From positions 1 through 20,351 of the IMG/VR virus record IMGVR_UViG_3300030331_003588: a stretch of 20,351 bases of DNA, one strand, 5' to 3'. Under the pieces are notes generated by a model. The model was given only the letters and a program-made list of their open reading frames with translations. It searched no databases and was not told where the DNA came from. The position numbers were made by a program, and so were the translations under genes. Shown in pieces: positions 4,199 through 18,613 of this stretch (the stretch's first letter is position 1; each line of letters starts with the position of its first letter). The stretch is from a virus.

Positions 4199-4777
4199 TT
4201 AATGTGCCTCGTCTCTCAAGGATTGTTTCTTTAATAAATATGTTTTCCAATACATTTCAGCCGCATCACAGTATATTTCGTTTTCTCTCCAGCTTCTTGT
4301 TTTGCTAAAGTTAGCGGCATCAACAGGGGAAAAGTTTTGAATTAATACTTGGAACATTGCTAAATTTTTTATTCTGCTTTTTAGTTTGTAGTGTTCGACA
4401 TTTTCTTCTGCCACCATTCCAGCATATATTATTGTAAACAATGCTCCCACACCGATTTCCATTGCGCTTGGACTGTCGTTTCTTCTTATCGTAGATATGT
4501 GATAACGAAAATAATCTAAAGCTTCTATTTTGTCTAGTATTCGCTTGTCAATTTCTTTTGATGTATTTTCATAAATACCCCAAAAGTCGTTATACACAAG
4601 CTCATTCCCATATGTAACCGCAAGTTGTTTAAACAAGGTAAAGTAGTACACATCTGAAAAAGCAGTCAAAAAGTTTCCATCCTGATAATAAACACACCAA
4701 TCATCTTTTTTACCAGTTCCAAAAAATACACTTTTATCGTCATCCCATACCTTAATTTTCCTAATATTTTCTGTCAT
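4199..4777 (-). CDS. Hypothetical protein, 192 aa
   Basis: I cannot assign this soluble protein. The N-terminal part (residues 1-75) is rich in aromatic residues and looks like beta strands (WCVYYQDGNFLTAFSDVYYF). The C-terminal part (residues 80-190) is mostly helical and ends in a charged tail. There is no signal peptide and no clear catalytic motif. Its start overlaps the stop of the glycosyltransferase gene by ATGA, so both are likely made together. It could be a partner of that enzyme or an unrelated accessory protein. Confidence 0.7.
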   Translation of the reverse strand: MTENIRKIKVWDDDKSVFFGTGKKDDWCVYYQDGNFLTAFSDVYYFTLFKQLAVTYGNELVYNDFWGIYENTSKEIDKRILDKIEALDYFRYHISTIRRNDSPSAMEIGVGALFTIIYAGMVAEENVEHYKLKSRIKNLAMFQVLIQNFSPVDAANFSKTRSWRENEIYCDAAEMYWKTYLLKKQSLRDEAH

Positions 4778-5562
4778 ACTATTCTCCCTTCAAAAACATG
4801 AGTTCCTATATGTTTCAAATGTATATCTGGGTCAACAAAAATCTTTCCGCCTTTTTTTCTCCAGAGTTCACAAAAATGATAATCCTCCGATAACAAAGCC
4901 CCTGTGTAGTCAATGCTAGTGTCAAAAAATTGCTTAACCAAAGGTTTAATATAATTATCATTTTGGTCTTTTAAAGTCGATGACCTATATATTGCAACGC
5001 TAGAGGACAGGTCTTCAAAAACTTTTCTTTTAACCATCATAAAACCAGTTCCAGCGTGACGAACTTCAATTAAACCTCTAGAGTCTTGTTTAATCTTTGT
5101 AACACCGTCGGGCAGATTAATGACAAAATTACACGAGTATTCATTTAAATTATTCATGCCAGCATCAGAAGCTTTTTTTACTCTATCCCATTCAATTTCT
5201 TTTTTAGGATACAAACCACAAACAATATCTTCATCATAGCTGTACAGCCTGCTTATAGAATCTTCCTCAAAATAAATATCAGCATCAATAAACATTAAAT
5301 GGGTAAATTTATCGTCATCCAAAAACATTCTAGCTAATTCGTTTCTCGCTCTCGTAATCAAAGACTCATTCATAAGACTTGCTAGATGACACTCTATTCG
5401 TTGCTTTCTTAGTTCGTTCATCGCGTTTATAGTAGCCATTGTAAAATGACCTGTGCACATACCTCCAAACATTGGAGTAGCAATTAAGATACAAGGAGAC
5501 TTTGTTTTTTCACCAACGTTTAAACTTTTGTTAGCAGATTCGTTGATTGTAAACTTTGTCAT
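4774..5562 (-). CDS. GT-A fold glycosyltransferase
   Basis: The 262-aa protein opens its core with CILIATPMFGGMCTGHF, a nucleotide-sugar-binding first strand. It then carries ITRARNELARMFL and the hydrophobic strand LMFIDADIYF near residues 88-97, whose DAD is the metal-binding DxD motif of GT-A enzymes. The family transfers a sugar from a nucleotide donor. The acceptor cannot be read from sequence: modified DNA, a virion protein or a host envelope glycan are all possible. I chose the second ATG at 5562 because an AGGAG site lies 6 bases before it; the first ATG at 5568 touches the site directly, although it would make an ATGA overlap with the upstream stop. Sitting among recombination genes is unusual for a surface-glycan enzyme. 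Confidence 0.8.
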   Translation of the reverse strand: MTKFTINESANKSLNVGEKTKSPCILIATPMFGGMCTGHFTMATINAMNELRKQRIECHLASLMNESLITRARNELARMFLDDDKFTHLMFIDADIYFEEDSISRLYSYDEDIVCGLYPKKEIEWDRVKKASDAGMNNLNEYSCNFVINLPDGVTKIKQDSRGLIEVRHAGTGFMMVKRKVFEDLSSSVAIYRSSTLKDQNDNYIKPLVKQFFDTSIDYTGALLSEDYHFCELWRKKGGKIFVDPDIHLKHIGTHVFEGRIV

Positions 5563-10056: not shown

Positions 10057-10321
10057 AAGGAATACAATTAAAAGGAATTATAAAAAAGAATATCAAGGGC
10101 AGTTACGCAGAGGGGACAACAAAAAACAAATAGAAAGGCAACGCGCCCGTAGGTTACTTGATAGAATAGGGGCAGACAAAAACAAAAATGGTAAAGCCGA
10201 TAAAAGGGAAGGCAAAGACATAGACCATAAAAAACCGATACGAAGAGGAGGTAAATCAAACTTAGCAAACTTAAGGCTGAGAAACAGAAAAGCAAATCGC
10301 AGAGACAACAAAAGAACGTAA
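10046..10321 (+). CDS. Basic HNH-like protein, 91 aa
   Basis: This very Lys/Arg-rich protein contains KDIDHKKPIRRGGKSNLANLRLRNRKANR (in parts: KDIDHKKPIRRGG, residues 56-68, and KSNLANLRLRNRKANR). It is the D-H...P...GG...NL...N core of HNH endonucleases but lacks the usual zinc cysteines. Small proteins of this kind are common in phages. They may be weak nucleases, or DNA-binding proteins that have lost nuclease activity. A GGGAG site lies 8 bases before the start. The stop shares one base with the primase-helicase start (TAATG), so the two are coupled. Confidence 0.7.
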   Translation: MTIKRNTIKRNYKKEYQGQLRRGDNKKQIERQRARRLLDRIGADKNKNGKADKREGKDIDHKKPIRRGGKSNLANLRLRNRKANRRDNKRT

Positions 10322-11991
10322 TGCTAGTGTCAAAACGCATTGCGTGTCCGCTCTGTTCTCAAGACAGAAAGAAAAGGAAATCAAAAGATTGTGTTGTTTC
10401 GGAAAAACCTGACGGAACAGAAGTATTCTTTTGTCATCATTGCGGAGAAAGTGGGGTGTATAACCAGTCTCCAAACCATCGCCCCACACCGCATCAACAA
10501 GGAGGGGAACAAAAAATGTTTAAACCGCAAGTAGTGCAAGACCTAGACAAAGACCACATTGAGTTTTTAGAAAAGCGTGGCATATCTCAAAATACAGCCA
10601 AGGTAGTTGGAATTTTCGGGGCAGAGAAATGGTTCACTAGATTGAACAAGAAGGCCAAGTCAATTGCATTTCCGTACATAAAAAACGGAGAACTGATGGC
10701 AGTAAAGTATAGGTCACTAGAGGGCAAAGACTTTACACAAGACGCAAGTGGAGCCACACTTCTATTTAACATAGACAATATCGACAAATCCAAGCCAATG
10801 ATTTTTGTGGAAGGAGAGATAGACGCTTTAACTCTTATTGAGTGTGGCGTTGACAATGTTGTGTCGGTTCCTACAGGGGCTCCCATAAAAGTATCGGAAG
10901 GCAAGGTAGACCCCAGTGAGGATAAACGTTTCCAGTATATTTGGCAGTCTCACGAAGTAATTAAAGAATGCGAAAAAATTATTATAGCTACCGACAATGA
11001 TACCGCCGGTCAGGCTCTAGCTGAAGAATTGGCAAGGCGTATAGGCAAGGACAAATGTCACCTTGTAGAGTTTGATGGGCATAAGGATTTCAATGAAGTG
11101 TTATTGAAGTCTGGCAAAGACGAAGTTAAAAAAATACTAGACTCCGCAAAACCTTACCCAGTTGAAGGTCTCCTGTCACCGGGGGATTTTTTAGAACGTT
11201 TAAACAACCTTAGAGCGAACGGGACAGGGCGTGGAAAATCTACTGGGTATAAAAACTTAGATGATATTTATACAGTGGTTGAAGGACAGCTAACTGTAGT
11301 TACCGGTTATCCATCTAGTGGTAAGTCTAATTTTGTAGACCAGTTAATGGTAAACCTTGGTTCACAACATGACTGGAAGTTTGCTGTATGTTCTTTTGAG
11401 AACGCTCCGGAAACTCACATAGCAAGGCTGATGGAAATCAGGCAAAAGAAAAGATTCTTTGAGGGCAAGAATCAAATGACTAAAGACGAATACACTGAGG
11501 GGTTTGAATGGGTCAACGAACATTTTATTTTCTTAACGCACCAGTCTAGTGAGCCCAGTACAATTGATAGTATCCTAGAACGTCTCAAAGTTGCAGTAGC
11601 CAGAGATGGGGTTCGAGGTGCAGTTATAGACCCCTACAATTACATCATCATGGATAAAGAGTCTTCTGAAACTGAGAGCATTAGTAATATGCTTACTCGT
11701 GTACAAAGCTTTGCCAAAGCTTATGGTTGTCACATTTGGTTTGTAGCTCACCCTGCCAAGATGCAAAGGTATGGAAACGAATTACCAAGACCCGATGGAA
11801 TGGCTATCTCCGGTAGTATGGCGTGGTGGGCAAAAGCTGACGCAGGGCTAACGGTACACAGGCAGGAAAATATGACAGAGATTATTTGCTGGAAATGTAG
11901 GTACAGATGGGTAGGCAAAACAGGATTAGTGGAGATGGCCTACGACACGATAACAGGAAGTTATACAGAAATCGAAGACCCTTTTGGATAA
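10321..11991 (+). CDS. T7 gp4-type DNA primase-helicase
   Basis: Domains in order: a zinc finger with Cys9, Cys12, Cys38 and Cys41; a TOPRIM primase domain with IFVEGEIDALTL (around residue 165) and IIIATDNDTAGQ (around residue 224); a linker; and a RecA/DnaB-type helicase with Walker A GYPSSGKSN (around residues 328-336) and Walker B-like GAVIDPYNYI (around residue 434). By family knowledge it makes RNA primers and, as a hexamer, unwinds the fork for the phage polymerase. Length (556 aa) matches T7 gp4 (566 aa). No DNA polymerase gene lies in the window. The start is coupled to the HNH-like gene; its own ribosome site is weak. Confidence 0.93.
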   Translation: MLVSKRIACPLCSQDRKKRKSKDCVVSEKPDGTEVFFCHHCGESGVYNQSPNHRPTPHQQGGEQKMFKPQVVQDLDKDHIEFLEKRGISQNTAKVVGIFGAEKWFTRLNKKAKSIAFPYIKNGELMAVKYRSLEGKDFTQDASGATLLFNIDNIDKSKPMIFVEGEIDALTLIECGVDNVVSVPTGAPIKVSEGKVDPSEDKRFQYIWQSHEVIKECEKIIIATDNDTAGQALAEELARRIGKDKCHLVEFDGHKDFNEVLLKSGKDEVKKILDSAKPYPVEGLLSPGDFLERLNNLRANGTGRGKSTGYKNLDDIYTVVEGQLTVVTGYPSSGKSNFVDQLMVNLGSQHDWKFAVCSFENAPETHIARLMEIRQKKRFFEGKNQMTKDEYTEGFEWVNEHFIFLTHQSSEPSTIDSILERLKVAVARDGVRGAVIDPYNYIIMDKESSETESISNMLTRVQSFAKAYGCHIWFVAHPAKMQRYGNELPRPDGMAISGSMAWWAKADAGLTVHRQENMTEIICWKCRYRWVGKTGLVEMAYDTITGSYTEIEDPFG

Positions 11992-12183
11992 TATGTCAAG
12001 TTATAAATTCGGCAAACGCTATTTTTTCGTGTAAATATTATTTGATGTTTAAACATTAATAATATTCAAAGTTTACCTGCCTCAGTTCGTTTTGCTTGTT
12101 TGGTAAAAGAATATAAAAAAATAATAATTAGACCAGAAACTCCGGCAGGATTACCGAAGCTTCTGAACTAATAGTGCGGTTAT
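11992..12183 (+). other. Convergent intergenic region
   Basis: This AT-rich gap lies between convergent primase and small-gene operons. It holds a 13-codon frame from the ATG at 11993 (MSSYKFGKRYFFV), one GTTTAAAC copy at 12047-12054, and, without an ATG, an open frame of about 34 codons ending at 12171 that reads like protein (VRFACLVKEYKK...). These could be remnants of a decayed gene. A hairpin at 12134-12165 is listed separately. Confidence 0.4.
12134..12165 (-). terminator. Imperfect hairpin with T-rich tail, end of small-gene operon
   Basis: CAGAA at 12134-12138 pairs with TTCTG at 12161-12165, with inner CT/AG and CGG/CCG pairs broken by two mismatches. Read on the minus strand it is followed, after a few bases, by TTATTATTTTTTT. 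This fits a weak terminator for the leftward operon that ends at 12184. Confidence 0.45.
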
Positions 12184-12369
12184 TTATTGAGTTTCGTTTG
12201 TTGGATGTCTTGAAACGTTTAAGTATTCTCTGTACTTCTTTAACATAAAATAAATACGTTGCTTAGACACCCCAAGTTTTTGTGCAATCTCAGGGAGAGT
12301 CTTACCTTCTTGTCGAAGTTTAAAAACATTTAAGTGACGCTCCCTTGCTTTTTTATTTTGTAAAATCAT
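12184..12369 (-). CDS. Small helix-turn-helix protein, 61 aa
   Basis: After a basic start (MILQNKKARERH) comes GKTLPEIAQKLGVSKQRIYFMLKKY (residues 22-46, in parts GKTLPEIAQKLGVSKQ and RIYFMLKKY). This is a clear helix-turn-helix of the resolvase, sigma-4 or LuxR-like kind. It is therefore a likely DNA-binding regulator and the last gene of the small-gene operon. I placed the start at 12369 because it overlaps the preceding stop by ATGA; a longer frame to 12435 runs through that coding membrane gene and is not supported. It is one candidate for the protein that recognises the repeated promoter box or the GTTTAAAC palindrome, but that is speculation. Confidence 0.75.
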   Translation of the reverse strand: MILQNKKARERHLNVFKLRQEGKTLPEIAQKLGVSKQRIYFMLKKYREYLNVSRHPTNETQ

Positions 12370-12539
12370 AATCCTAAAATAAAACTTTCTAGCCAAAGGA
12401 CTGCTAAACCCAAAAACATCACAGCTACACCGCACAAAACTATTGCCATGAATAAATCGGATACAGTTTCTATCCAGTCTTTCGGGTCATTGTGAAATAT
12501 ATTCCGGTCAATCTTTTCTTTAAACTCTGGTTTGCTCAT
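12366..12539 (-). CDS. Small membrane protein, 57 aa
   Basis: The soluble N-terminus (MSKPEFKEKIDRNIFHNDPKD) is followed by one long hydrophobic segment at residues 29-57 (LFMAIVLCGVAVMFLGLAVLW, given as key residues) with little after it. It would insert as a single membrane helix with the N-terminus probably in the cytoplasm. The start overlaps the upstream membrane gene by 20 bases and the stop overlaps the HTH gene by ATGA. A holin-related or superinfection role is possible, but there is no lysin gene nearby to support it. Confidence 0.65.
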   Translation of the reverse strand: MSKPEFKEKIDRNIFHNDPKDWIETVSDLFMAIVLCGVAVMFLGLAVLWLESFILGL

Positions 12540-12771
12540 AAGTTTTTCCCCTCGTTGAAACTACACAGTGATACACAGTATAAAGAACATTACACGCCCC
12601 AATCAAAACAATTAGACCCCCGATAGCAAGTGCCCCAAGGTAACCTACGTTGTTTACAAAATGAAAGTTTGTAAATACATCTTTTATTACGCAACCTACT
12701 AGAGCACCCCAGATTGTCCAGATGCTTGCCATGATTGCGTTACCGCTACAAATTTTAATGTTTTTGTTCAT
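12520..12771 (-). CDS. Two-helix membrane protein, 83 aa
   Basis: Hydrophobic stretches at about residues 12-29 (AIMASIWTIWGALVGCVI) and 43-68 (YLGALAIGGLIVLIGACNVLY) are joined by an aromatic loop, and a short charged tail follows. Two helices and a short charged tail resemble small class II holins, yet no endolysin is visible in the window, so the label is withheld. An AAGGAG site lies 6 bases before the start, which overlaps the upstream gene by 17 bases. Together with the next gene it forms a pair of adjacent membrane proteins. Confidence 0.7.
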   Translation of the reverse strand: MNKNIKICSGNAIMASIWTIWGALVGCVIKDVFTNFHFVNNVGYLGALAIGGLIVLIGACNVLYTVYHCVVSTRGKTYEQTRV

Positions 12772-13033
12772 GCTCTGTCTCCTTATAAGTTATATCTTCA
12801 ACTATTACATCAGTGATATTTCCTTCCTGAATAACACCTCTGCCTTCAGGATTCTCCAGCAAGGAAGAAATCCACTGCATTACACCCTCTGATAGTAGTG
12901 AATGGTCACCAGTTCGTAACGCGTCTCTATCAGATTCGGATAGTTCATCTGCATTGAAATGTAAATCGGTACTACATTCGATGACCCTGCCAAACTTCAC
13001 AGTCAACACCAAGGTTTTGTTTTTCGCTGTCAT
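12755..13033 (-). CDS. Hypothetical acidic protein, 92 aa
   Basis: I do not recognise this protein. It starts with strands (KTLVLTVKFGRVIEC), has an acidic middle (LSESDRDALRTGDHSLL) and ends with VTDVIVEDITYKE-type strands (residues 73-86) plus a charged tail. The start at 13033 is preceded by AAAGGAG at good spacing. A longer frame to 13060 starts inside the upstream gene without a comparable site. It overlaps the two-helix membrane gene by 17 bases. Confidence 0.65.
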   Translation of the reverse strand: MTAKNKTLVLTVKFGRVIECSTDLHFNADELSESDRDALRTGDHSLLSEGVMQWISSLLENPEGRGVIQEGNITDVIVEDITYKETEHEQKH

Positions 13034-13044
13034 ATTTTCTCCTT

Positions 13045-13251
13045 TCATTCTGTCCTCCAACCTACCACAAGAAAGTCAATGTCCTCGTGGCTATGGCTAT
13101 CTATAACTTTCTTAGGTAAGTAATCTGCTAGTTGATAGTGAGTTTTACCACCGAACCAAGCCATACTATCCTCTGCTCTCATAGGTTTCCAACCTTTACG
13201 TTTAATCATGGCTATGAAAGCCTTTACTATCTTCTTATCTTCCTCAGTCAT
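13045..13251 (-). CDS. Hypothetical protein, 68 aa
   Basis: This small basic-then-acidic protein has a helical N-terminus (EEDKKIVKAFIAMIKRKGW) and a compact aromatic C-terminus ending IDFLVVGWRTE. It has no membrane segment or metal-binding pattern and no family I recognise. An AAAGGAG site precedes the start and the start overlaps the upstream stop by ATGA. Its tail sequence contains the ribosome site of the next gene. Confidence 0.65.
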   Translation of the reverse strand: MTEEDKKIVKAFIAMIKRKGWKPMRAEDSMAWFGGKTHYQLADYLPKKVIDSHSHEDIDFLVVGWRTE

Positions 13252-13403
13252 ACTTTCTCCTTTCTCTTTTTTTCTGCTTCAATAAAAGCAAACGCAATGT
13301 CACGAGAGTTTAAACGCTTTTCATACTGCCCGCGTCTGTCTTTGTGTCTGCCGGTATTTCTATTAGGATTTTTTATTTGTGCCCTAACAACTAAGTTCCT
13401 CAT
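13248..13403 (-). CDS. Small basic protein, 51 aa
   Basis: The frame starts at 13403, inside an ATGA overlap with the upstream stop, and ends in an ATGA overlap with the next start. It has 51 codons and the product is strongly basic (RNTGRHKDRRGQYEKR near residues 15-30, tail EKKRKEK). Chained overlaps on both sides are the main evidence that it is real. A nucleic-acid-binding role is plausible from charge alone. It contains one GTTTAAAC copy (13308-13315), which encodes part of RLN. Confidence 0.6.
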   Translation of the reverse strand: MRNLVVRAQIKNPNRNTGRHKDRRGQYEKRLNSRDIAFAFIEAEKKRKEKV

Positions 13404-13687
13404 TGAACACTCCTAAAGGGCATGTTGCTTGGGCTATGTTGAAACACTAATCGCTCTGCAACCTTTTTGAGAATCTCAATTTTCTCTTTAGATATTGCTA
13501 AACTTTCAATTAAACCCAGAACGTTATCAATCACTATTTCTGATTGCTTTTTTGTCCTAGCTGTAATAGCTAATATAAAACCCTGTACAACAAAAGCTTC
13601 GCCTTTTGTCAGGTTTTCATCTTCCATTAACTTTTCAATTAATGTGAGCATATCTTTTTCTATTTGTTTTTTTTGCTTTGCGTTCAT
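13400..13687 (-). CDS. Hypothetical helical protein, 95 aa
   Basis: The product is almost all helix with a charged N-terminus (MNAKQKKQIEKDMLTLIEKL) and heptad-like leucine/isoleucine spacing through residue 80, so it may form a helical bundle or coiled coil. The C-terminal 15 residues are polar. AAAGGGG lies upstream of the ATG. No family is recognised. It sits in the middle of the chain of tiny genes. Confidence 0.65.
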   Translation of the reverse strand: MNAKQKKQIEKDMLTLIEKLMEDENLTKGEAFVVQGFILAITARTKKQSEIVIDNVLGLIESLAISKEKIEILKKVAERLVFQHSPSNMPFRSVQ

Positions 13688-13689
13688 AA

Positions 13690-13872
13690 TTACTTACCCC
13701 TTTCAATATCGTTTAAACATTGGTTGTGTCCTTCAAAGTCATCTAGGTCAGGCTTCGATAAATCAAACTTGGCATGAACAATATCGCCTTGCATACTAGA
13801 AATTCTGTGTTGCACTGGACAGGTTTTTAACCAATCAAGAAATCGTTCTATGTTTTCAATCTGCTCCATCAT
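13690..13872 (-). CDS. Hypothetical protein, 60 aa
   Basis: This small, soluble product contains ENIERFLDWLKTCPVQHR and an acidic middle (KPDLDDFEGHNQC). It holds two cysteines that do not form a zinc pattern. The start (ATGATG) overlaps the upstream stop by ATGA, and the ribosome site of the next gene spans its last codons. One GTTTAAAC copy at 13711-13718 lies inside. Function unknown. Confidence 0.6.
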   Translation of the reverse strand: MMEQIENIERFLDWLKTCPVQHRISSMQGDIVHAKFDLSKPDLDDFEGHNQCLNDIERGK

Positions 13873-14072
13873 TCTTCCTCTAAGTAATCTAATATCTGCT
13901 TGGCAAACTCTGCCCGACCCTCGTATATATCTTTTGAACCATCGGTGACTTCTTCCATAGCTTCTTCAGAATCATCAATACACTTTTCACAAGCATCTTG
14001 TATTGAATTTAACTTACCGTTCGCATGACACAAGTCCATCTCTAACTGCCTGATTTTTTCAATTAAGTTCAT
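13869..14072 (-). CDS. Hypothetical acidic protein, 67 aa
   Basis: The product is acidic and helical (MNLIEKIRQLEMDLCHANGK, then DSEEAMEEVTDGSKDIYEGR) and reads like a short coiled coil in its first 35 residues. The ATG shares bases with the stop of the upstream 54-aa gene (TAATG) after an AAGGGGGG site. An acidic small phage protein could be a DNA mimic or an inhibitor of a host enzyme; there is no direct evidence. Confidence 0.6.
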   Translation of the reverse strand: MNLIEKIRQLEMDLCHANGKLNSIQDACEKCIDDSEEAMEEVTDGSKDIYEGRAEFAKQILDYLEEE

Positions 14073-14236
14073 TACTTACCCCCCTTCGCAAATTTTAATG
14101 AATCGTTAACGTGCTCAAACCTTCGATTACCTAATTTCCTATCACCAATTTGTTTCATTTTCCTAGCGTGTTCTCTTCTAAGCTTTCTAGCTTTACGCCC
14201 CCCTAAACTAAAACCTCCATTACTGTTTACTTTCAT
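14072..14236 (-). CDS. Small basic protein, 54 aa
   Basis: This 54-codon frame joins its neighbours on both sides by TAATG overlaps, which is strong support. The product is very basic with a Gly-rich start (NGGFSLGGRKARKLRREH) and another RKLGNRRFEH segment, typical of small RNA- or DNA-binding proteins. No known family. The bases AGTAAACAG just after the start resemble part of the 12-mer promoter box, but they are coding here and no -10 follows. Confidence 0.65.
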   Translation of the reverse strand: MKVNSNGGFSLGGRKARKLRREHARKMKQIGDRKLGNRRFEHVNDSLKFAKGGK

Positions 14237-14466
14237 TACTGCCCCTTATAAAAAGAACAAATAAACCATGGCTTGTCTAATGCCAAACCCCAAAACGTTC
14301 CTGCTGTTTTGTCCGAATAACGTGCATACTTTCTACAACGTAAAGCATGTCCGTCTTTTTTTTGTTCCTTCTTTTTAAAATAGTAACCACGTTTTAAATC
14401 AAACATTTTTATCTGTCCGCCCTTAATGGCGTGGCGGTTATGCCATTTATAATTTCTTGGAAACAT
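14236..14466 (-). CDS. Hypothetical basic protein, 76 aa
   Basis: The start at 14466 follows a GGGGG site and lies two bases after the upstream stop; a longer frame to 14538 lies inside the upstream gene and is not favoured. The product is basic and aromatic-rich (MFPRNYKWHNRH, KRGYYFKKKEQKKDGHALRC) and ends WFICSFYKGQ. Two cysteines are too far apart for a clear zinc site. Function unknown. Confidence 0.6.
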   Translation of the reverse strand: MFPRNYKWHNRHAIKGGQIKMFDLKRGYYFKKKEQKKDGHALRCRKYARYSDKTAGTFWGLALDKPWFICSFYKGQ

Positions 14467-14467
14467 A

Positions 14468-14650
14468 TCAATCCCCCTTTTTCTTGCGACCGGTTCCTTC
14501 GATGTGCCATTCAACTGTGTCAATGTCATAGCCTTCACGAATTAAAGCATCATCAATGACACCTCTTATTAAACTCATCTCTTCAGTGTCAAGACAATCT
14601 GAAGGACCACTGTTATACGTTGGTATAATTACAATTTTTTCGGTAGCCAT
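14468..14650 (-). CDS. Hypothetical protein, 60 aa
   Basis: The start at 14650 is set by an AAAGGGG site 8 bases upstream; an earlier in-frame ATG lies inside the preceding gene. The product has a strand-like start (TEKIVIIPTYNSG), an acidic middle with DTEEMSLIRGVIDDALIREG, and a basic tail GRKKKGD. It looks like a small alpha/beta fold. No family is recognised. Confidence 0.6.
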   Translation of the reverse strand: MATEKIVIIPTYNSGPSDCLDTEEMSLIRGVIDDALIREGYDIDTVEWHIEGTGRKKKGD

Positions 14651-14664
14651 AGTGTATCCCCTTT

Positions 14665-14835
14665 CTACTTGCGTTTCATTTCCAAGCCCCACACTCTTAT
14701 AGCGTGGTCCATTTCCATGTTTTTTATTTTAGTGACAGACTGTTTTGAATCTGACGCGATGTTCCTATTCAATATTTTCTGCACATCCCTTGGCAACTTA
14801 GTTATGTCACCGCCCATTGCTTCTAAAACTGTCAT
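14665..14835 (-). CDS. Small protein, 56 aa, first gene after the structured RNA
   Basis: AAGGAAAGGAAAGCTT precedes the ATG, a good ribosome site, and the frame runs 56 codons to TAG at 14665-14667. The product is helical with basic ends (MTVLEAMGGDITKLPRDVQK, later WGLEMKRK). It is the first gene of the leftward small-gene operon, 21 bases after the 3' arm of the large RNA stem, so its translation could depend on that RNA. No family is recognised. Confidence 0.7.
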   Translation of the reverse strand: MTVLEAMGGDITKLPRDVQKILNRNIASDSKQSVTKIKNMEMDHAIRVWGLEMKRK

Positions 14836-14856
14836 AAGCTTTCCTTTCCTTAGTAG

Positions 14857-15156
14857 TTAACAATTTGGAGAATACATAACCTAGTCAGGTACCCAGAATT
14901 AGGGAGCCGACAGCGTGGCTTTTGAGAGTATCGCCTGTATTTTCCCCAAATACAGTTACTAAACTTCTGTGCACCGTCCTCGTTTACCGTAGTGTTTTGC
15001 CCTGTTCACCCCTGCCTTCCTATGGACATGACCCCATATTTCAACTCAGGCTCCCTCAGCGTACCCTAACCTAGCCCCGTGGCTAGTTTGGTCTACTCAG
15101 CAGTACTCCTTTAAATACCCCACAGCATTGTCGCTATGTATTCACCAAATTGTTAA
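14857..15156 (-). ncRNA. Candidate structured RNA, about 300 nt, closed by 22-nt inverted repeat
   Basis: The region has no sensible reading frame and is GC-richer than its surroundings. Arms at 14857-14878 and 15135-15156 pair at 21 of 22 positions; the single mismatch is U-U if read as minus-strand RNA. Nested inside are GGTAC 14888-14892 with GTACC 15061-15065, AGGGAGCC 14901-14908 with GGCTCCCT 15049-15056, and hairpins at 14935-14955 (8 bp), 15021-15038 (5 bp) and 15071-15086 (6 bp). A promoter with a TATATT -10 element fires leftward just outside the right arm, so the transcript would start about 12-15 bases before the stem. It could be a leader for the small-gene operon or a stable RNA cut from it. 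No known RNA family was recognised. Confidence 0.62.
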
Positions 15157-15178
15157 AGAACATAATTACTATATAAGT

Positions 15179-15207
15179 AATATACAACTGTTTACTTTAT
15201 AGGTCAA
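15179..15207 (-). promoter_or_regulatory. Promoter of the structured RNA and small-gene operon, with 12-mer box
   Basis: On the minus strand TTGACC (15207-15202), a 17-base spacer and TATATT (15184-15179) form a sigma70-like promoter. The spacer holds AGTAAACAGTTG (15196-15185), identical to a box in two other promoters of this window. It points at the structured RNA starting about 15 bases downstream. Confidence 0.65.
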
Positions 15208-15231
15208 CTATTATTATTGTCTACTCTTATA

Positions 15232-15249
15232 GAGACGAAATAACGTCTC
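15232..15249. other. Stem-loop after the VWA gene
   Basis: GAGACG at 15232-15237 pairs with CGTCTC at 15244-15249 around a 6-base loop, directly downstream of the VWA stop at 15256. Neither strand has a T tract after it, so it is at best a weak terminator or an RNA-stabilising hairpin. It also lies just upstream of the RNA promoter. Confidence 0.4.
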
Positions 15250-15255
15250 CAATTC

Positions 15256-17082
15256 TCAAAACCTCTCCCTGCTTAACTCGTTTATTAATTTATTGAACGT
15301 AGCCCCAAATAAATCTTTAGAATTATCTATGCTTACAGAACGTTTAAACTTCTTTATGGTTTCAGCTCTAGCAACCATACCTACCATAAATAATTTAACA
15401 TTAGAAGCCTTGGCAACACTTTCTAAATAGTCTACCTCTGACTGGTGTAAAGGACTCTCGCAGTCAGTGATAACGCACACAACCTTTTTAGCGTTGGCCT
15501 GCTTTGCAGTATCTTTAATAGCCCATAGCAATGACTCATAAAGTGGCGTTCCGCCATCAACATAACATCCTAAGTGGCGAACTCTCTTTTTAACATCCTT
15601 GTTATAAGCTTTTGACCAGTCTTTAAATGTAACCATATTCACCCATGTACCCTCACCGTAAAAACCTGTAACGTTTAGCGTGGCATCGGTAGAGTTAACT
15701 ATGTCGCACAAATGTTCTGTAACTTCCCCTGCCTTTATAGCTTTGCCTTTACTGCTCATAGAACTGGAGATATCCAAGAAAATTTGGAACGCTGTATTTT
15801 CAGCTTCCTTTACGTCACGTTGAGAAAATACGGCAGGCGAATTTAAATTTAAATTGACTAAATTTTTTCTATCAACTTTGCCCCTCAATTCCTTGCGAGA
15901 TACTCCAACCTCATCATCAGCTTTGAGTAAACGCCACAAAGCATTACGCGTGGCACCATAGCCCTGTGGCTTTGATGGTGCAAAGCCCTCGCCTAAATCA
16001 TAGTCTGGGTACTCTTTATTTGATTCTATCTGATTACATAAACGCTGTGTATCAACTTTGCCATTATCAAAGGCCTGACCTTGGGGCTCGACTTGAATAA
16101 CTTCTGTCTCAGGGTAGTCTTCAAGGCTGTATTCTTTTTCTACCTTGTTACCCTCACCCTGTTTTGTTTCAGAGCCCTCAGAGCCCTCTGACGAACCCTC
16201 AGAGGTATCTTCGCCAACTTCATTAGATTCCTGACTGTCATCACCCTCACCAGATTCCTCACCGTCTTCCTGTTCTTTCTTCTCGCCTTCACCCTCAGAA
16301 CCTTCGCCCTCTTTACTTTCGCTACCGTCAGAACCTTCCTGCTCTTCAGACTGCTCACCGTCTTCCTGCTGTTCCTCAGATTGTTCCTGAGACTGGGGTG
16401 CATCCTTGCGATACTTAAGCAGTGCATCATATAAAGTTCGGGCAACCTCTACAGTATCGGTAGTACTCTTAGCCTTTGCGTTATCTGCCAAAGCTTTCTG
16501 CATTTCGGTAGCCCAAGGAACCTGAGCCCAATCCCAATCAAAGTCAAACTCATAGCCGTTTAAACGTCTTCCAAGGCAGGCAAGTGCAAAGGGAATATTT
16601 TTGAAATCATCACCGGCAACTGGTGTAACCATGACCCTAATTAGTCCTTCAAATAAATCCCTAGCCCTCACGTTGGGCATACGGTTTATTACTTCCAATT
16701 CCATGCGTACGTCTTCCAAACCATTTATCAAACCATGAAAAAACTGTCTCTCAGCTTCGAGCCCTTTGTGACCCTTAATGTGAAGGTCTTTCACTAACTC
16801 ATTTACACCTATATCCCATGAACTATTACTCGTATAATTTACGTGACCTATTTCATGTAAGCATAGCGAGACAAGTCTCATAAATTCAGAACGTGATACT
16901 GTCTTAGACTCATCAATCTGTGGAACCCTTACTCTGACTTCCTTATATGTCCAGATTACGCCGGCAGTATCGGTAGACCAATAAGTCACATTGACCTTTT
17001 GTTTGTGACCGGTCTCGCGGAGCAGTCTGGTTAGGTAACCTTTTAAAGCATCTAAAACTAAAATTCCCTGTACATTATTCAT
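15256..17082 (-). CDS. VWA protein with metallopeptidase-like N-terminus, CobT-like
   Basis: This 608-aa protein has three parts. The N-terminal part carries CLHEIGHVNYTS, an HExxH zinc motif near residues 76-80, followed by NGLEDVRMELEV about 45 residues later, a likely third-ligand region as in VWA-linked metallopeptidases (DUF2201 type). The middle (about residues 230-310) is a long Glu/Ser/Gly-rich acidic linker. The C-terminal VWA domain has a MIDAS site: DISSSMS (near residue 437), GGTPLYE (near 512) and TDCES (near 540). By analogy with CobT and with RavA/ViaA-type pairs it is the partner and adaptor of the AAA+ ATPase encoded just upstream. The start at 17082 has AAAGGGGG 6 bases upstream; the ATG at 17088 touches that site. 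Confidence 0.85.
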   Translation of the reverse strand: MNNVQGILVLDALKGYLTRLLRETGHKQKVNVTYWSTDTAGVIWTYKEVRVRVPQIDESKTVSRSEFMRLVSLCLHEIGHVNYTSNSSWDIGVNELVKDLHIKGHKGLEAERQFFHGLINGLEDVRMELEVINRMPNVRARDLFEGLIRVMVTPVAGDDFKNIPFALACLGRRLNGYEFDFDWDWAQVPWATEMQKALADNAKAKSTTDTVEVARTLYDALLKYRKDAPQSQEQSEEQQEDGEQSEEQEGSDGSESKEGEGSEGEGEKKEQEDGEESGEGDDSQESNEVGEDTSEGSSEGSEGSETKQGEGNKVEKEYSLEDYPETEVIQVEPQGQAFDNGKVDTQRLCNQIESNKEYPDYDLGEGFAPSKPQGYGATRNALWRLLKADDEVGVSRKELRGKVDRKNLVNLNLNSPAVFSQRDVKEAENTAFQIFLDISSSMSSKGKAIKAGEVTEHLCDIVNSTDATLNVTGFYGEGTWVNMVTFKDWSKAYNKDVKKRVRHLGCYVDGGTPLYESLLWAIKDTAKQANAKKVVCVITDCESPLHQSEVDYLESVAKASNVKLFMVGMVARAETIKKFKRSVSIDNSKDLFGATFNKLINELSRERF

Positions 17083-17108
17083 AAGCATCCCCCTTTGTTA
17101 GTGTGTTA

Positions 17109-17138
17109 ATTATACTACCCAACTGTTTACTTTTTCAA
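17109..17138 (-). promoter_or_regulatory. Promoter of the VWA gene, with 12-mer box
   Basis: TTGAAA (17138-17133) overlaps the stop of the ATPase gene, and a perfect TATAAT (17114-17109) follows after 18 bases. The spacer holds AGTAAACAGTTG (17131-17120). The VWA gene can therefore be transcribed separately from the ATPase gene. Confidence 0.7.
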
Positions 17139-18613
17139 GAAACTTTTACAGTGAAAGCTTTCTCGTTTATTTTTGTTTTTCTGATAGCTTCCAATTCCGG
17201 TGCACAGTCAGCAGGGTACTTGTTTATTATTGAGTTTCTAAAGGCTAACTCAAATGGCAAACCCTTCTGACATGACCTAGCCAATGTCATCAACTGACGT
17301 ATCGATGGGGGCTGAGTTAACAAACCATCCACAGATTTTTGTCTGGCTGTTGTCGCAAACTCAACAATATTCTCAGCAACCTCAGCACGAACTCCGGTTT
17401 TTTTAACAAGCAATTCAGCTTCCTTTGCTTTTGGAAGATAGTGAAACTCCATACATGGATTAAACCTATCCACGAACGCACTGTTCTGCTCAAGTGTGCC
17501 GGCATGTCCGCCAGTCTCATCGCCATAGCCACGAGTATTATCAGCAACCGCAAAGCAAACGTAATCAGCTACAGGTATTTTTTTACCGGTCTCAGCGATA
17601 GTCAGCCCTCTACCCTTCGCAACTTCTACCACTGCCTGAAGCATAAGAACCTGACGCGGACGGCTACAGCTAACCTCGTCAAATAAAACTATCGTGCCTG
17701 CTTTTTGGATAGCAGTAGAGACGATACCCTCTGACCATTTTATAGTACCATTTTCACTGGTCATACCGCCTATCAAAGCATCGTCAGTGCCTTCGGAGAA
17801 ATTCACTCGAACCACGTTTAAACCTAGTCTGGAACCTAGATTGTTTATGAACTGAGTTTTTCCTGTACCGCGATGACCGGCTAACCAAAGGTTATCAGGC
17901 AGGGCACCATGCGAGAGACTGATTAAGGTTTGATGTAGGTGCATTGGGTCAAATATATAATCAGGGTCAAACGTATCGTCCTTTGGATGATTAAAGACAT
18001 TGACCGGAAACTCAGTAAAGTCTTCGAGGTTTCCATTTAAAGTGTACTGGCAGACATCAAAACCAAACACCTCACCGGCAGTTTTCACTGTGAACTTAGC
18101 CCCTTCTAATTTCTCAGCTACTACCTGAACCTGCTCAGGCTTTGCATCCGAAAGGTAGGGATTGAGAATCTCAGAAACCCTTGAAGAAACTAACTCCGCA
18201 AGTACATTGGGGTCAGGCTTTAACGCATTTTGGATGTCGGCTGTGGCATTCTGTAAAGTTTGCTCGATGTGGTTCAACTGGTGACTCATCCGCCCATTGA
18301 CATCGTCAAAACGTTTGTCAACTTCATCGTGAAGTTCTTTGGCGCGAGTGATAAGGCTTGCAACCTCATTACTGCCATTGGTTTTTACACCTTCACTGGT
18401 ACCTGCGCTTTTAGCTACGGCCATCAACTGCTCAAACTGGTACTTGCTTTTAACCCTTGGGTGCATAACAAACTCGAGAGCCTGCTCTTTTGTCAGGTTC
18501 TTAAACGCGTGGTCATCTATTTGGATTACACCACTGCGAGAAACCTTAGCAATGATAGCCTTCAATTGATGCAAAGATAATTTTGATAACTGTAATTTTT
18601 GTCCTTTTGTCAT
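17135..18613 (-). CDS. MoxR/CobS-type AAA+ ATPase
   Basis: The 492-aa protein has an N-terminal helical region and a coiled coil (about residues 80-130). Its AAA+ core carries Walker A GHRGTGKTQF near residue 245, RVNFSEGTDDALIGG, Walker B IVLFDEVSCSRP near residue 308, and a sensor-1 region FAVADNTRGYGDETGG followed by SAFVDRF. This set is typical of CobS, the ATPase of cobaltochelatase, and of MoxR ATPases that work with VWA proteins. No other cobalamin gene lies nearby, so a general remodelling role with the downstream VWA protein is more likely. AAGGGGG precedes the start by 8 bases. The stop overlaps the -35 element of the VWA promoter. Confidence 0.9.
   Translation of the reverse strand: MTKGQKLQLSKLSLHQLKAIIAKVSRSGVIQIDDHAFKNLTKEQALEFVMHPRVKSKYQFEQLMAVAKSAGTSEGVKTNGSNEVASLITRAKELHDEVDKRFDDVNGRMSHQLNHIEQTLQNATADIQNALKPDPNVLAELVSSRVSEILNPYLSDAKPEQVQVVAEKLEGAKFTVKTAGEVFGFDVCQYTLNGNLEDFTEFPVNVFNHPKDDTFDPDYIFDPMHLHQTLISLSHGALPDNLWLAGHRGTGKTQFINNLGSRLGLNVVRVNFSEGTDDALIGGMTSENGTIKWSEGIVSTAIQKAGTIVLFDEVSCSRPRQVLMLQAVVEVAKGRGLTIAETGKKIPVADYVCFAVADNTRGYGDETGGHAGTLEQNSAFVDRFNPCMEFHYLPKAKEAELLVKKTGVRAEVAENIVEFATTARQKSVDGLLTQPPSIRQLMTLARSCQKGLPFELAFRNSIINKYPADCAPELEAIRKTKINEKAFTVKVS

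Follow-up and report, generated by a model that had tools for sequence, protein, structure and literature searches.

A structured 300-nt element that looks like an orphan leader RNA in two related uncultured phages

A 300-nt element in a 20,351-base virus record from IMG/VR (hereafter the window, meaning the whole stretch of DNA that was analyzed) looks like a regulatory leader RNA: a ~300-nt orphan phage RNA that is unmatched in Rfam and that was detected in two related uncultured phages. Comparison of the window with another IMG/VR contig that carries the element (L006) and with a close relative that does not (L004) shows presence or absence at one site, changes that preserve minus-strand structure, and slow change. 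The reading that we prefer, and to which we give an even chance, is that the element is a cis-acting structured domain in the leader of an operon beginning with a 56-amino acid gene (p56), where it would set the stability and/or processing of the mRNA.

The element occupies positions 14857 to 15156, with its 5' end at 15156 on the minus strand. It is bounded by the arms of an inverted repeat (14857-14878 and 15135-15156; TTAACAATTTGGAGAATACATA and TATGTATTCACCAAATTGTTAA) that are complementary at 21 of 22 positions and separated by a 256-nt spacer. The best inverted repeat in block-shuffled windows scored 15 as compared to 19 for the real one (100 trials), and no equally strong and equally spaced repeat was identified elsewhere in 2.09 Mb of phage DNA except for its own copies. 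These observations confirm that the inverted repeat, which the original prediction had described with the same number of pairs, is real and far beyond chance. The interior had also been described as GC-richer, and the G+C content of the element is indeed 0.46 versus ~0.39 in its surroundings.

The working strand is the minus strand, on the basis that the neighboring genes on both sides of the element are on that strand, that a sigma-70-like promoter precedes the element on it, and that the consensus pairs all survive in L006. The original prediction had termed 14898-14908 the 3' segment and therefore meant this strand as well; the same-strand promoter that it placed upstream was recovered in a consensus scan (TTGACC-17-TATATT, minus strand, 15207-15179) and is nearly unchanged in both L006 and L004. 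Transcription is predicted to start near 15172. Read along the minus strand, the promoter is followed by ~16 nt, the element (15156-14857), 6 nt, the Shine-Dalgarno region of p56 (AGGAAAGGAA; 14850-14841), and an ATG at 14835. A fold run from the predicted start site leaves this ribosome-binding site unpaired beside the closing stem of the element (P1), and no minus-strand terminator was found between the element and p56. Because the element lies between the promoter and the p56 Shine-Dalgarno region without an intervening terminator, it would be 5'-leader RNA unless processed. The p56 gene itself (14665-14835, minus strand) is kept in L004 (95% identity) and L006 (80%); its product has no Pfam match, and its AlphaFold model is helical and of low confidence.

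The wider neighborhood comprises a primase/helicase (10321-11991, plus strand), a CobT-like VWA protein (15256-17088, minus strand), a MoxR/CobS-like ATPase (17135-18613, minus strand), and otherwise many small genes. The primase/helicase, VWA, and MoxR genes (10321-18613) were identified in the same order in ~50 diverse IMG/VR phages, where VWA and MoxR mostly share 28-45% identity and where PHROGs annotates the module as cobaltochelatase-like. Between the primase and the accessory genes, the window codes for a small helix-turn-helix protein (HTH_23/sigma-70 region 4-like; 12184-12435, minus strand) that is a candidate regulator of the p56 operon. The genes that follow p56 (13869-14692, minus strand) vary among the three phages: p74 was seen only in the window, while L004 and L006 carry other small genes, as is typical of a variable accessory operon. 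A gene of 87/98 amino acids separates VWA from the p56 promoter in L004 (3188-3484, plus strand), and in L006 it likewise lies upstream of this promoter (4669-4932, minus strand), at the end of the contig; it is missing from the window (15157-15255). The surroundings of the promoter are thus a site of gene gain and loss.

L004 provides a view of the same locus with the element cleanly absent. This relative is 87% identical to the window over the VWA region and has the same promoter, the same Shine-Dalgarno region, and a p56 that is 95% identical, and its leader is only ~50 nt long. Its junction reads ...AATTATAGTTTTG-TTAA-CTACTAAGG, whereas that of the window reads ...AATTATGTTCT-TTAA-[292 nt]-TTAA-CTACTAAGG, such that a single TTAA in L004 corresponds to two in the window that flank the element (14857-14860 and 15153-15156). 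The element is optional, given that this promoter and gene occur together in L004 in its absence. Furthermore, the p56 of L004 is closer to that of the window than is the p56 of L006, which indicates that gain, loss, or exchange of the element happened at least once.

Protein-coding content was considered for the element and rejected: no long frame runs through it, only short ones are present, and the two known copies differ by a 1-nt indel. The longest sense-strand frame has 29 codons and a ribosome site in an unfavorable position. This frame begins with GTG (14885-14974, minus strand; MHRSLVTVFGENTGDTLKSHAVGSLILGT) and is open in both copies, but two of the four changes between them alter an amino acid, such that it shows no sign of coding and is probably non-coding. 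The length of the antisense frame is not conserved either (50 versus 133 amino acids). The element was also compared with the covariance models of all 4227 families of Rfam 15, which include riboswitches, group I/II introns, RNase P, tmRNA, SRP, 6S, GOLLD, ROOL, OLE, and HEARO, among others. No match reached gathering scores and, at E ≤ 10, both the window and L006 returned only chance-level matches (12-20 bits as compared to cut-offs of 34-80). Strings that by eye resembled a group I intron, lysine and cobalamin riboswitches, RNase P, and SRP were dropped, as none had a covariance-model match. ARAGORN identified no tRNA or tmRNA in the window, and no reverse transcriptase indicative of a retron was present among the subset of its open reading frames that was scanned. 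The element thus has no conserved protein frame and matches no Rfam family even at the permissive threshold, in keeping with the original prediction of a non-coding region outside the recognized RNA classes. The undescribed structured RNA that the original prediction proposed is supported, also by the strand-specific conservation of pairs and the slow change described below, whereas the switch that it attached to this RNA is not supported. It had also overlooked that the RNA is inserted, as an optional part, into the 5' leader of a small gene.

The predicted minus-strand fold is closed by P1 (15133-15156 with 14857-14880), which is identified by the inverted repeat, by folding (pair probability 0.99), and by consensus pairs; it comprises 22 pairs and one mismatch, and two of these pairs change in L006 only into other standard pairs. 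Within P1, the original prediction of nested helices and hairpins is reproduced, as predictions, by two nested helices and four hairpins. The nested helices are P4 (15059-15070 with 14884-14894) and P5 (AGGGAGCC, 15049-15056, with GGCTCCCT, 14901-14908; 8 pairs, probability 0.94). The hairpins are P2 (15094-15127; probability ~0.9), the paired bases of which are invariant between the two copies; P3 (15071-15086), which reads CTAGCC-ACGG-GGCTAG in the window and CTAGGG-ACCG-CTCTAG in L006, with two pairs changed on both sides; P6 (TATGGG...TCCATA, 15021-15038; probability 0.89); and P8 (CTGTATTT-loop-AAATACAG, 14935-14955; probability 0.98), the top pair of which changes from U-A to U-G in L006. 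The element as a whole is more stable than shuffled sequences on the minus (z = -4.3) and plus (z = -3.8) strands, with P1 accounting for almost all of the excess; taken by itself, the 256-nt interior is not more stable than dinucleotide shuffles (z = -0.48).

The homolog in L006 lies at the same place and is identical at 288 of 300 aligned bases (96%), with one inserted base. Between the window and L006, p56 is 83% and the primase 89.5% identical, and the difference amounts to 4% for the element, 17% for p56, and 28% for fourfold-degenerate sites of the primase. The element therefore changes ~7 times more slowly than fourfold sites, and ~100 nt of its interior, the most constrained stretch, are without any change. 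The simplest reading of this slow change would be strong selection, with local recombination as an alternative.

The structure was evaluated by folding one copy and checking the changed pairs in the other, in both directions. On the minus strand, five of six and five of five changed pairs remain standard in the other copy, as compared to only two of six and none of eight on the plus strand. A plus-strand RNA was rejected on these grounds, as its structure breaks in L006. The two-sequence consensus contains 107 pairs, every one of which is standard in each copy and two of which are changed on both sides; both of these double compensatory changes are in P3 (CUAGCC-ACGG-GGCUAG to CUAGGG-ACCG-CUCUAG), and the other changes to consensus pairs in this single homolog are conservative. 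When the same substitutions were placed at random, one or fewer broken pairs (P = 0.002) and two or more double compensations (P = 0.0014) were rare, but without the cluster of changes in P3 the remaining substitutions are not significant (P = 0.17). Being clustered in one hairpin, the two double changes may represent a single mutational event. The shuffles of the pair-count tool were uninformative at two rows (129 of 500), and an energy test gave no support, since 85 of 300 random mutants matched L006 in stability. Given one homolog, the clustering of changes in P3, and the unremarkable stability of the interior, P1 and P3 are supported, whereas P4, P5, and the remaining helices stand as predictions that L006 does not contradict.

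Within the collections that were searched, the distribution of the element is very narrow. Only the copy in L006 was recovered by word, DNA, and protein searches of IMG/VR together with one word scan over genome contigs and blastn comparisons to phage and plasmid records, although word searches would miss strongly diverged copies. An 18-letter word from the inverted repeat identified L006 as a genuine match among viral contigs, while the other seven matches were similar only at the word and its edges. Three core words (GGTAAACGAGGACGG, GGGTGAACAGGGCAAA, and GAGGGAGCCTGAGTTG) retrieved only the orthologous copy from viral contigs, and an 18-mer core word had 22 matches in genome contigs, none of which was similar beyond the word itself and its edges. 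No further copy was detected by blastn against phages and plasmids, among relatives of VWA and p56, among 80 relatives of the primase (blastn and covariance model), or among 398 genomes of one bacterial phylum, the last in a search without a positive control. In the ~50 relatives with the primase and VWA in the same order, no comparable gap was present behind VWA and a covariance model of the core found nothing.

In the mechanism that we propose for a cis-acting leader domain, the ~300-nt domain would be transcribed on the minus strand, from the predicted promoter, within the 5' leader of the small-gene operon that starts with p56. The 22-pair P1 would close the domain and leave the ribosome-binding site just behind it unpaired, and the folded domain, being near the 5' end, would determine in cis how stable the p56 mRNA is and/or how it is processed. 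We further infer that RNase III might cleave within P1, which would detach the domain and leave the message with a different 5' end. The minimum size of an RNase III target is quoted as 22 nt (PMC5371410), and P1, with its 22 pairs and one mismatch, is long enough. Messages are known to be stabilized or destabilized by 5' hairpins as well as by RNase III sites in their leaders (PMC5371410). The element resembles RNase III-processed leaders and the processing stems of ribosomal RNA in having a long closing double strand around folded RNA near a 5' end, but it differs in that its interior is unrelated to any known family and in that cleavage is here a proposal. Against a cis-acting leader domain, the sole homolog is at the same locus, and the similarity of the two elements could reflect recent recombination.

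RNase III cuts the processing stems of ribosomal RNA. A comparable cut in P1 might instead free a stable ~250-nt interior that acts in trans elsewhere in the infected cell, a possibility to which we assign about half the weight of action in cis. That P1 closes the element flush and at a length suited to RNase III, and that the most constrained stretch of ~100 nt lies in the interior, would be expected of a released RNA; moreover, the RNA is not needed for the p56 gene, since L004 has the gene without the element. Yet the element is always upstream of p56 (two cases at one locus) and has neither a minus-strand terminator nor a separate promoter of its own.

A third explanation, which we consider improbable, is that the element is a non-autonomous, MITE-like mobile DNA insertion that carries inverted repeats at its termini and has duplicated a TTAA target, the RNA fold being a by-product of these repeats. 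Like the MITEs of bacterial insertion sequences, it is short and non-coding, ends in inverted repeats of 22 nt, and offers a clean comparison of filled and empty sites with TTAA on both sides; in addition, its interior folds no better than shuffled sequences and it is more similar between phages than are the flanking genes. It differs from MITEs in that no copy was found at a second locus, with word searches of viral and genome contigs giving only the orthologous copy, and in that no matching transposase is among the annotated proteins of the window. An identical junction would result if L004 had lost the element between short TTAAC repeats, and pairing, including G-U pairs, is kept on one strand only, which is unexpected for a DNA element.

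The original prediction suggested a switch with mutually exclusive helices, and a ligand-sensing riboswitch of this kind now appears quite unlikely. Its leader position, size, and multiple helices are in keeping with such a role, and a second pairing is possible in the window (UUAGGG/CCCUAA; 15070-15065 with 14903-14898). However, an extra A in L006 (TTAGGG to TTAAGGG) bulges this alternative helix while P4 and P5 remain intact, and no output of a switch is visible, since the fold predicted for the leader leaves the ribosome-binding site unpaired and contains no predicted terminator. Riboswitches do occur in marine phages, as exemplified by the glutamine riboswitch of phage Melnitz (PMC9004378), which likewise is a structured RNA in a phage regulatory region, but the element is larger, matches no riboswitch covariance model in Rfam, and has no visible expression platform.

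Slightly less probable still is a new class of phage RNA, a self-contained, mobile-like domain that would enter mRNA leaders at TTAA, be cut out of the transcript by way of its closing stem, and act in trans during infection. A DNA-level signal such as a replication origin or cruciform, although suggested by a long intergenic inverted repeat in the neighborhood of a phage replication gene, is the least credible explanation, given that G-U-type changes are kept on one strand only, that GC skew has no turning point at the element, and that the close relative L004 does without it.

To our knowledge, large structured phage RNAs are few, and several are without known function. Among them, the element is most readily compared with GOLLD and ROOL (PMC12286853), which are large structured noncoding phage RNAs of unknown function; it is, however, much shorter (GOLLD members often exceed 800 nt), has no Rfam match, and is part of an mRNA leader rather than a neighbor of tRNA genes, none of which are in the window. 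As a kind, the element is one more orphan phage RNA, the weight of which rests on two sequences at present. As a case, it is useful for its empty-site relative: L004, which is closely related and shares promoter and gene with the window but lacks the RNA, is a natural control, such that the two alleles offer a direct test of the role of such a leader RNA.
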